Assembly (NCBI GenBank): GCA_029551395.1 | Contig: JAKPFN010000134.1 | Span: 1 to 59,761, forward strand | From: Armatimonadota bacterium | GTDB lineage: Bacteria; Armatimonadota; UBA5829; DTLH01 | Reading direction: 5' to 3' | Length of the DNA stretch: 59,761 nt | Shown here: piece after piece, positions 8,696 through 59,761 of the stretch | How positions within the stretch are numbered: position 1 is the stretch's first letter | Layout of the letters: each line of letters begins with the position of its first letter | Position numbers and translations under genes: made by a program | The notes under the pieces: model-generated | Databases searched by the model: none | The model's input: the letters and a program-made list of their open reading frames with translations, nothing else | What the model was told of the DNA's origin: nothing

Positions 8696-9919
8696 CTATT
8701 TGAACAATTTTTTTATGCCTGTAAAAACATTCGCAAGCAGGCTTGGAGACTTTCCATCGTCGCGGACCGCCATCCGATGCCTTGCTGCATACTTAACAAG
8801 TCCGACTGAGGTCGCAAACATTGGAGAAGTAACGGAATCGACCATTCCGCCAACTCCCCTCGGTACCTCAAGTCGGGACGGAGTTTCAATTATCCGGGTC
8901 GCACTGTCGACTATACCCGGAAGCAGTGCTGAACCGCCTGTCAGGACTATTCCCATCGGTAGAAGACCGAGATAACCGGACTGGTCTATCTCTTTCTTCG
9001 ACATCTCAAGGATTTCCTCGACCCTGGGTTCTATAAGTTGTGCAAGAATATGTCTGGGCAGAGATTTCGGCTCGCTTGAGCCAAGCGCTGCTACCTGGAA
9101 CATTTCGCCTTTTTCTACCATATCGACTCTGGCGCATCCGGCTTCCCGCTTCACCTTCTCAGCCTCTTCCTGAGAAGTCTGCAGCCCAACGGCGATGTCA
9201 TGCGTAATATGACCGCCGCCAACCGGAAGCACTGCAGTGTAGTAGACCTCACCGTCCACAAAAATCGCTATATCGGATGTTCCACCACCAATATCTATGA
9301 CCGCAACGCCAAGCTCCCTTTCTTCCTGGCTGGTTACGGCCAATCCTGAAGCAATCGATGCAAGGACAGTCTCTTCTACTTCGATTCCTGCCTTGGCAAC
9401 GCTCTTCAAGACGTTCTGCAGGAAACTTGTGGACCCGGTGACGATGTGGGTCTCAACTTCCAGCCGCCGACCGGACATTCCTACAGGATCCTTTATGCCA
9501 GCCTGACCGTCAATGGTAAATCCTCTGGGTATGGCGTGGATAATCTCCCGCTCAGGTGGAAGGACGATGACACGAGACGCATCGAGCACTCTATCAACGT
9601 GCTCCCGCCTGACTTCATGGTCTTCCTGGGTGATTGCGATTCTACCTGGACTGTTTAATGAGGAAATATGTTCGCCGGTGACGCCGACGAGTGCTGTATG
9701 GATCTCAGCGCCTGAAACCCGTTGTGCGATTGCCACAGACTCACGAATTCCAGACGTGGTAGCGTCCATATCGACGACCACGCCCCTTCTGAGTCCCATG
9801 CAGGGTACGAACCCGACGCCAATTATATCCACACGGCCGTCATCGTGTATTTCTGCGACGGTAGTGCAGACTTTTGTTGATCCAATATCCAGGCCAGCGA
9901 ATATCTCACTTTTGGCCAC
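8696..9919 (-). CDS. ftsA: Cell division protein FtsA
   Basis: 407 residues from the GTG at 9919, chosen because AGGAGGT lies 5 nt upstream; an upstream start at 9958 would add 13 unlikely residues. Actin-like ATPase that anchors FtsZ to the membrane. Visible are phosphate-1 GLDIGSTKVCTTVAEI, the SHS2-region motif, VAVIDIGGGTSDIAIF (phosphate 2), VLTGGSALLPG (adenosine motif), and a C-terminal amphipathic segment LLANVFTGIKKLFK for membrane attachment. It lies directly upstream of ftsZ, as usual. Confidence 0.97.
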   Translation of the reverse strand: MAKSEIFAGLDIGSTKVCTTVAEIHDDGRVDIIGVGFVPCMGLRRGVVVDMDATTSGIRESVAIAQRVSGAEIHTALVGVTGEHISSLNSPGRIAITQEDHEVRREHVDRVLDASRVIVLPPEREIIHAIPRGFTIDGQAGIKDPVGMSGRRLEVETHIVTGSTSFLQNVLKSVAKAGIEVEETVLASIASGLAVTSQEERELGVAVIDIGGGTSDIAIFVDGEVYYTAVLPVGGGHITHDIAVGLQTSQEEAEKVKREAGCARVDMVEKGEMFQVAALGSSEPKSLPRHILAQLIEPRVEEILEMSKKEIDQSGYLGLLPMGIVLTGGSALLPGIVDSATRIIETPSRLEVPRGVGGMVDSVTSPMFATSVGLVKYAARHRMAVRDDGKSPSLLANVFTGIKKLFK

Positions 9920-10046
9920 GGTTACCTCCTGGGCGGGCAGTGCGCATCGGCCCACCATTCATGCACAGAATGCCGAATACCCGTGGCAGGTGTTCGACAT
10001 TCTGGTTAATTATACGGCTGAGATGACCTCTTGTGTTCCTGATTTG

Positions 10047-17420: not shown

Positions 17421-17692
17421 CTCGGGCTAAATTGCAAATTTAGCCCGAAAATAGCCTTACCCTCGGGTTAAATTTGCAATTTAACCTGGAATAGTGGATA
17501 AGGGATTTGCCGGGAGGAATTGCAAATTCCTCCCGAGAGATAGGGCTCATCCGAGAGGGATTTACCCTCGGGTTAAATTTGCAATTTAGCCCGGAATAGT
17601 GGATAAGGGATTTGCTGGGAGGGATTGCAAATTGCTCCCGAGAGATAGGGCTCATCCGGGAGGGATTGCAAATCCCTCCCGAGATAGGAAAG
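17421..17692. repeat. Palindromic TTGCAA-core repeats, including a 105-bp tandem duplication
   Basis: Five or six palindromes in a row between nusA and ylxR. Two types alternate: TCGGGCTAAA-type arms and GGGAGG-type arms, all around a TTGCAA core. Units 17459-17563 and 17564-17668 are a 105-bp tandem duplication with a handful of differences, several of which fall in paired positions. As RNA these would form a chain of hairpins inside the nusA-infB transcript. Confidence 0.85.
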
Positions 17693-50243: not shown

Positions 50244-50700
50244 ATGCCTACAGTGAGCAACCCAGGTATGAGGTATGAGGTATGCGGTATGAGTGGGCTG
50301 CTAAGTAAGGCTTGGCATGTGGTTCTGGCAGCTTAGTTTCAGTCGGTAAGCTGAGATCAGTTAACGAGGAAAATCTGAAAGTGAAGAAAGCTGGAAAAGG
50401 GATGATTCTGGTTGATGCCACTTAAAATTGAAAACATGGGCGTCAGCGCAAAAGGCGTGCGCCTACGCATATAAAAGATGAAATTTACTGATGCCCTATA
50501 CTCGTACTAAATATACTCGGGCTAAATTTGCAATTTAGCCCGATGCTTAGCCAGACTATCAGCATCACGTGCCTGGCTTTTACTTAGCAGCCTACTCATA
50601 CCTCATACCCCATACCTCATACCCCGACTTTCCCTTCATTCCGCACTCCGCGTTCCGCATTCCGCATTCTACCGGTTTGCTTTGGGGAGGGTTTGTGTTA
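50244..50700. repeat. Repeat mosaic between the ParB-like gene and obg
   Basis: No gene. In order: GGTATGAGGTATGAGGTATG (about 50270-50293); the A-rich block GGAAAATCTGAAAGTG...GGAAAAGGGATG and GGTTGATGCC (50365-50420); the GGCGTCAGCGC/GCGCCTACGC hairpin (50439-50470); a TTGCAA palindrome TCGGGCTAAAT/ATTTAGCCCGA (50517-50543); an inverted copy of the first repeat, CTCATACCTCATACCCCATA (about 50586-50620); and the heptamers CATTCCGCACTCCGC (50637-50670). rplU and rpmA, usual neighbours of obg, are missing. Confidence 0.8.
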
Positions 50701-54155: not shown

Positions 54156-54669
54156 ATCAACTCCCAACTTAAGAAAAGGTATGAGGTATGAGTTAGCTCC
54201 CACTCGTCACTGTTTTTGTATGCGTCGGCGCGCGTTTTTTGCGCCGACGCCCAATTACCCGCAGGCTAAATCCTACCCTCGGGTTAAATACCACCCTCGG
54301 GCTAAATTTGCAATTAAATACTACCCTCGGGCTAAATTTTCCCCTCGGGCTAAATTTGCAATTTAGCCCGGAAAGGCTGAGAGAGGGATTTGCAATCCCG
54401 GTCTTTGGTGCTTCATATAATGATTCGGGATCACAGATCCCTCACCTGCCTATTCGGGGGAAATTGCAAATTTCCCCCGAATAGATTCCTTAGCTATCAG
54501 TCCGTGAGGGATTGCAAATCCCTCACGAGGAATGAGAGGGATTACAAATCCCTCCCGATGAATAACTCCTCATCACTCGCCACTGTCTTTGTAGGCGTCG
54601 GCGCACATTTTTTGCGCCGACGCCCAGTTATGATTCTCAATCAGCACCAACAAATATCATCTTTTATAT
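54156..54669. repeat. Repeat mosaic with five TTGCAA palindromes and two GCGCCGACGC hairpins
   Basis: No gene. GGTATGAG copies (54178-54195); hairpin GCGTCGGCGC/GCGCCGACGC (54222-54250); tandem CTCGGGCTAAA-type units and a palindrome near 54298-54370; GGGGGAAA-TTGCAAA-TTTCCCCC (about 54457-54480); GTGAGGGA-TTGCAAA-TCCCTCAC (about 54505-54530); GGGAT-TACAAA-TCCCTCCC; ACTCCTCATCACTCGCCAC; hairpin GGCGTCGGCGCA/TGCGCCGACGCC (54594-54624); and CTCAATCAGCACCAAC. Confidence 0.85.
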
Positions 54670-59387: not shown

Positions 59388-59761
59388 TTTCTACCTCCAA
59401 AGCAAAATACCCTGTACCTTCATACCCCATATCTTCTGGAAAACCGATGCTGAGGGATTTTGACAAGGAAAATTTGAAAAGAGAGAAGACAGGAAATGGA
59501 TAGATGTAGTCTCCATGAAAGACATCTCATCCCAACTTATCCTTACTCGTCCATGAAATCCGTTCCGTTATCCAGTTATCACATTTTAAATACCTATATG
59601 CGTCGGCGCGGTTTTTTTCGCCGACGCCCAGTTATGAGACTTAACCAACCTCGGGAGAAATTTTCCAACCTCGGGAGAAATTTGCAATTTCTCCCGAACA
59701 TATTGCTAAGGAATCTGTGATTCCGAACAATTATCTAAACATCAATAACCGGGATTGCAAA
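59388..59761. repeat. Repeat mosaic at the right end
   Basis: CCTTCATACCCCATA (GGTATG-type); A-rich block AAGGAAAATTTGAAAAGAG...GGAAATGG (59464-59500); hairpin GCGTCGGCG/CGCCGACGC (59600-59627); tandem AACCTCGGGAGAAAT units, the second forming the palindrome TCGGGAGAAA-TTTGCAA-TTTCTCCCGA (about 59673-59698); and the start of another CGGGATTGCAAA copy at the edge. No gene is seen. Confidence 0.75.

Follow-up and report, generated by a model that had tools for sequence, protein, structure and literature searches.

Palindromes with a shared TTGCAA core in an Armatimonadota bacterium as probable REPs of a REPIN-RAYT-like system

Our analysis of a 59,761-nt stretch of DNA from an uncultured Armatimonadota bacterium (the window; contig C14 of a source genome of 3.58 Mb in 165 contigs) indicates that the palindromes in its gaps are repetitive extragenic palindromes (REPs) arranged in miniature elements like REPINs or BIMEs, which belong to a RAYT (REP-associated tyrosine transposase) system and are most likely mobilised in trans by the RAYT encoded on contig C39 of the same genome. 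We give this reading a probability of about 0.92; cleavage and mobility of the elements are steps that we infer. It follows from a RAYT gene that lies inside one copy of the unit, and from the finding of the same type of end around RAYTs of its clade in other Armatimonadota genera. The initial annotation had offered a hairpin-mobilised REP-like element, an RNA-processing signal and a protein target as possibilities. The first of these is now supported by genome-wide copies, compensatory arm changes, extragenic sites and the RAYT inside the unit. The system is of a known kind. New are the lack of a GT[AG]G foot, the double-hairpin end, the near-invariant TGC loop and the exchangeable paired arms. 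A full REPIN-RAYT system is hereby placed in Armatimonadota, with a gene-bearing and a near-identical gene-less copy side by side. Among open-access PMC papers, none joins the phrase "repetitive extragenic palindrome" with Armatimonadota.

Palindromes of the window and the two-ended unit

Perfect hairpins that combine a 3-nt loop with a stem of 9 bp or more occur nine times in the window, all nine with a TTTGCAA or TTGCAAA core, compared to a mean of only 0.25 (maximum 2; 0.03 with the core) in 60 dinucleotide shuffles of the window. At a stem length of at least 7 bp there are 11 such hairpins, nine of them with the core, and the shuffles yield a mean of 4.1 and a maximum of 10. TTGCAA by itself is only weakly enriched (35 versus 24.8 expected); the signal lies in the palindromes. 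When imperfect copies are included, the window contains ~14 palindromes. All four gaps in which they had been reported indeed contain them, and all five arm sequences quoted at that time were found.

At the centre of each palindrome, A-T pairs close a loop of 3 nt that reads TGC on one strand and GCA on the other, which makes each hairpin directional. The core had been described as invariant, which holds for the nine perfect stems of at least 9 bp, but not throughout: the loop is ACA at 54536-54554, and TGT or TAC in copies elsewhere in the genome. The core is thus near-invariant only. Stem imperfections are found at 17464-17488, 17569-17593 and 17616-17640.

The palindromes are not free-standing, but are parts of a larger two-ended unit. 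Each end has two hairpins: the outer one is 25 nt long, CGGG-N4-ATT-TGC-AAT-N4'-CCCG, and ~13 nt further on comes an inner one of 15 nt, GGGATNTGNNATCCC. A typical unit is an inverted pair of such ends, with the outer hairpins facing each other 108 bp apart. The features of the window are as follows.

17423-17447, minus strand: REP hairpin CGGGCTAAATT-GCA-AATTTAGCCCG; the loop is TGC on the minus strand
17464-17488, plus strand: REP hairpin CGGGTTAAATT-TGC-AATTTAACCTG, with one G.T pair
17511-17535, minus strand: REP hairpin CGGGAGGAATT-GCA-AATTCCTCCCG
17569-17593, plus strand: REP hairpin CGGGTTAAATT-TGC-AATTTAGCCCG, with one G.T pair
17616-17640, minus strand: imperfect REP hairpin; the plus strand reads TGGGAGGGATT-GCA-AATTGCTCCCG
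17657-17681, minus strand: REP hairpin CGGGAGGGATT-GCA-AATCCCTCCCG
50518-50542, plus strand: lone REP hairpin CGGGCTAAATT-TGC-AATTTAGCCCG
54260-54341, plus strand: serial truncated end copies (CCCTCGGGTTAAA.., CCCTCGGGCTAAATTTGCAATTAAA.., CCCTCGGGCTAAATTTT) preceding the full unit, read directly from the sequence
54342-54483, no strand: complete REPIN-like unit with two inverted two-hairpin ends; z of the single-stranded DNA fold -8.5
54346-54370, plus strand: outer hairpin of the CTAAA-type end of this unit
54385-54399, plus strand: inner hairpin GGGATT-TGC-AATCCC of the CTAAA-type end
54427-54441, minus strand: inner hairpin of the other end, GGGATC-TGT-GATCCC on the minus strand
54455-54479, minus strand: outer hairpin CGGGGGAAATT-GCA-AATTTCCCCCG; the perfect stem reaches 54450-54484
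54503-54527, minus strand: REP hairpin CGTGAGGGATT-GCA-AATCCCTCACG
54536-54554, minus strand: degenerate REP hairpin GAGGGATT-ACA-AATCCCTC with the altered loop
59668-59724, plus strand: two-hairpin end ACCTCGGGAGAAATTTGCAATTTCTCCCG...GGAATCTGTGATTCC, the top covariance-model match of the window (75.7 bits)
59750-59761, minus strand: first part of the partner end, CGGGATTGCAAA; the contig ends within this unit (59668-59761)

The six hairpins at 17423-17681 together form a mosaic cluster of ends that are partly whole and partly truncated. Besides the end of the window at 59761, several other contig ends of the source genome (C42, C48, C122, C142) lie in or beside units. The repeat therefore limits the assembly, and our copy numbers are lower bounds.

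The inverted arrangement is a prominent one, as in REPINs, which are inverted REP doublets. Among neighbouring hairpins spaced 100-112 bp apart, 37 of 41 pairs are convergent, and 74 of 159 hairpins belong to such convergent pairs. CTAAA-type outer hairpins mostly occur with a TGC inner loop, and AG-type outer hairpins with a TGT inner loop. The minimum-energy structure of the unit at 54342-54483, folded as single-stranded DNA, consists of separate local hairpins, while the centroid structure pairs the inner parts.

The dinucleotide CT lies immediately 5' of the outer hairpin in 140 of 157 cases, and the 5' foot reads CNCT. A GT[AG]G guide, sought ahead of the outer hairpin as well as in the spacer, is not a fixed feature: GTAG or GTGG is present in 24 of 118 inner spacers and never forms the hairpin foot, which is where canonical REPs carry their GT[AG]G hallmark (PMC6006769). 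The hairpin is followed on its 3' side by a GGANNNNTAGCTGA-like sequence in the TGC orientation and by a GAGNGTA-like sequence in the other.

Other repeats accompany the hairpins. One is a second family of palindromes, GCGTCGGCGC and GCGCCGACGC around a spacer that is often T6, which lies in the same gaps at 54222-54250, 54595-54623 and 59600-59627, with a degenerate copy near 50441-50470. It has seven copies in the 311 kb of stretches sampled around copies of the TTTGCAA hairpins, and no full copy was found near the RAYT genes of the source genome. Near-tandem runs of short units (CTCATACCTCATACCCCATACC; CCGCACTCCGCGTTCCGCATTCCGC) lie at 50600-50675, beside the REP hairpin. An inverted repeat, GTGCCGAATCAAGTTCGGCATGAC / CCCTGAACTTGTTTCAGGG, occurs beside or within clusters (flanks of units, stretches L004 and L007).

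Genome-wide copies and pairing of the arms

The strict pattern CGGG-N4-ATTGCAAAT-N4-CCCG has 177 sites in the source genome (94 forward, 83 reverse) and its reversed control none, so that the palindromes extend throughout the genome, well beyond the window. Four others of the 291 genomes of the phylum match this pattern, all from the same order. Most matches from outside the phylum are singletons or fail to pair in their N arms, and look like chance.

Almost all copies are extragenic. In the sampled stretches, only 9 of 169 hairpins are located within open reading frames (ORFs) of at least 100 aa, though ORFs make up ~80% of the sequence. Some of the nine are in spurious ORFs of the repeat itself. 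Extragenic palindromes of 20-40 bp with many copies per genome are what is understood by REPs.

We examined the arms of 162 hairpins from these stretches. As many as 125 are perfect, in 11 types, and the N4 arms are complementary in 131 of the 162, compared to 46 expected when the arms were re-dealt. A pairwise count on 46 distinct sequences, relatives included, found 96.4% of cells paired and changes on both sides in 7 of 11 pairs; the observed values were reached in none of 500 shuffles. Inner hairpins likewise show compensatory changes. These results bear out the earlier impression that the arms change in a paired fashion rather than decay. The strand of the hairpin also seems to matter. 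Among copies with a single imperfect pair, the TGC strand has G.T in 18 and A.C in 3 (11:3 by distinct types, p = 0.057), and the hairpin family of the related genome G003 has a G.T pair in most copies. Judged from these sequences, the G.T excess hints that the TGC strand is the strand that must fold.

Perfect pairing might be explained by quasipalindrome correction, in which the polymerase templates one arm from the other and the pairing is a mutational by-product without recognition or mobility. The high share of perfect palindromes would be in agreement with this, and so would the serial truncated copies that many hairpins have at their outer edge, which suggest that replication stalls or slips there. 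These copies start at the foot (CNCTCGGG) and stop variably up to or just past the loop; they are seen at 54260-54341 in the window, in stretches L012, L014, L026 and L230, and in similar form in G011 and G003. Their arrangement suggests repeated hairpin-dependent slippage or abortive copying. However, a few arm types (71 CTAA, 29 AGGG) are common to many unlinked copies, together with the same spacer, the same inner hairpin and the fixed 108-bp spacing, which requires copying of whole units. Moreover, correction leaves the RAYT inside the unit and the one-strand G.T bias unexplained. It is insufficient as a sole cause, a role in which we consider it very improbable, and may contribute to the perfection of the arms.

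Compensatory pairing at extragenic locations could also reflect selection on RNA structure, if the hairpins were transcribed and acted as terminators, 3'-end stabilisers or RNase signals. The G.T pairs, G.U in RNA, are tolerated on one strand, and secondary roles of this kind have been ascribed to known REPs (PMC3733652). Yet, many copies form inverted pairs and thereby present both orientations on either strand. Furthermore, the gaps between convergent genes hold no excess of copies (20 convergent, 22 divergent and 83 co-directional neighbours), and the hairpins lack the following T run that would mark an intrinsic terminator. An RNA-level function would also not account for the association with a RAYT. 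We regard it as a very improbable explanation of these elements.

The RAYT gene and its relatives

The initial annotation proposed a search for a TnpA-REP-like transposase in the genome, and one is encoded inside a copy of the unit itself. Positions 9396-9938 of contig C39 encode a 181-aa protein between facing hairpins (stretch 9322-9993). The protein matches the NCBIfam profile NF047646 (REP_Tyr_transpos) with 86.1 bits, above the cut-off of 80, and Pfam Y1_Tnp with an E-value of 0.005, below its cut-off. It has the HxH motif (THAHY) and the Y-x-x-x-N-P motif (EYLHNNP), of which H60, H62, Y142, N146 and P147 are invariant in 18 sequences. Where relatives have V, I, F, L or Y between the two histidines, the C39 protein has an unusual Ala. 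The top PDB match of its AlphaFold model (pLDDT 91) is 4er8, the E. coli TnpAREP with a bound REP hairpin (E = 2.2e-8), followed by the transposases of IS608 (ISHp608) and ISDra2. By profile, motifs and predicted fold, the C39 gene is a RAYT (TnpAREP, HUH/Y1). It is flanked by inverted REPs of its own type, which are abundant in the genome, as is typical of RAYTs. The Pfam Y1_Tnp search yielded other Y1 proteins and missed C39, and the first three Y1 loci of the genome have other repeats around them or none, which taken alone would suggest that no RAYT is involved. At least four RAYT-like genes are present in the source genome (C39, C162, C126, C84), and one gene-bearing copy of the unit was found.

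In the C39 element the gene takes the place of the short central spacer, between a left and a right end of two hairpins each. A gene-less unit, ~230 bp downstream of this gene, shares 57 of 58 positions with the left end; the sequences diverge exactly at the inner hairpin's inner edge, where the gene begins. REPINs have been proposed to derive from REPs flanking a RAYT-like ancestor (PMC3116915). In line with this proposal for their origin, the C39 pair illustrates a REPIN as a RAYT element minus its gene.

For a wider comparison we used a covariance model (R1) of the 57-nt end, built from 45 rows of dispersed source-genome copies. The rows include the C39 left end, and the match of R1 to that end is circular, unlike those to the C39 right end and in the other genomes. 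R1 matches 11 of the 291 genomes at E ≤ 0.001, all of the same class. Inverted ends lie on both sides of RAYTs in G017, in G002 (two genes) and on contig C174 of G014, and an end lies on one side only of the RAYT on contig C124 of G014. G017 and G002 agree in the distances, which are 31 nt from the end to the start codon and ~16 nt from the last codon to the other end. The C39 RAYT and its three closest relatives form one clade (support 84/94). In G003, G005 and G011, which have related hairpins, we found no RAYT bracketed by these hairpins; the RAYTs of these genomes have other REPs alongside or appear decayed. G020 gave three R1 matches and no RAYT match. Inspection of the G003 and G005 units by eye found no target-site duplications.

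The order has other RAYTs (L033 1220-1250 and 1820-1920; L241; L235; L240; L157), several of which lie between inverted hairpins of their own, different type, as expected under the one-RAYT-one-REP rule (PMC6006769). They offer a natural series for the study of RAYT-REP co-divergence.

The least plausible alternative is that the units are MITEs of another transposase, or binding sites of a nucleoid or regulatory protein, into which the RAYT inserted by chance: the source genome does have other Y1 genes and palindromes are common protein targets, but the RAYTs of G017, G002 and G014 are bracketed in the same way, with equal distances for G017 and G002, and several other RAYTs of the order have different hairpins of their own in keeping with that rule.

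Possible mechanism and comparison with known systems

Characterised TnpAREPs bind one strand of the folded REP and cut at CT, and the group with perfectly palindromic REPs depends on the loop bases (PMC8266576). By analogy with these enzymes, the C39 RAYT would read the loop and the foot and move the unit in trans. A displaced single strand might fold during replication, and the RAYT would then bind the outer hairpin. Recognition would depend on the TGC loop together with the stem's shape and its ends, and not on which bases form the four middle pairs. The enzyme would cleave close to the CT at the 5' foot, and move or amplify the unit into extragenic DNA. Because the middle pairs would not be read, the arms could drift freely as long as both sides match, under selection for a foldable substrate. 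Template-switch correction possibly helps to keep the arms perfect. The suggestion that a factor recognises the core would fit a RAYT that reads the loop.

Tentatively, the system might represent a distinct class of REPIN-RAYT recognition, with a two-hairpin end without GTAG guide and a RAYT that reads the near-invariant TGC loop and the CT foot while tolerating any paired middle four, such that one transposase would serve many arm types per genome. We regard this as a possibility rather than the expected outcome. Exchangeable arms around a fixed loop provide a ready substrate series for what a RAYT reads in its hairpin.

The closest counterpart is the REPIN-RAYT system of Bertels and Rainey (2011; PMC3116915), which likewise has extragenic inverted REP doublets at high copy number, clusters and tandem arrays, and a RAYT gene flanked by the same REPs. 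In contrast to that system, the ends in our genome have two hairpins and the REP is without the GTGG or GTAG motif. In addition, the outer hairpins of a unit usually differ in their arms, which suggests local folding instead of one long hairpin. TnpAY1 subclass 2.6 and class 3 are known to have atypical REPs that lack GT[AG]G (PMC6006769).

REPSm of S. maltophilia, in a group 3 TnpAREP-REP duo, has a perfect stem, a 3-nt loop with an essential, conserved base, and a CT near the hairpin (PMC8266576), much like the hairpins described here. However, our stem is 11 bp instead of 8 bp, lacks GTAG and has its CT directly at the 5' foot. Similarly, the REPs in Stenotrophomonas BIMEs vary at few positions, always keep the palindrome and occur in the order REP-rayt-REP (Nunvar 2010; PMC2817692); the matching arms of modified REPs were noted in that study and read as complementary mutations. 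Our genome differs in having 11 perfect types among 162 copies, and most of the variation falls on the four central pairs.

IS200/IS605 elements and their non-autonomous derivatives share the Y1 HUH fold, subterminal hairpins read as single strands, and the lack of observed target duplication. In contrast to these, the C39 protein fits REP_Tyr_transpos and 4er8 best and has a single gene copy found inside the unit, and the ends are inverted copies of each other, not left and right ends on the same strand.
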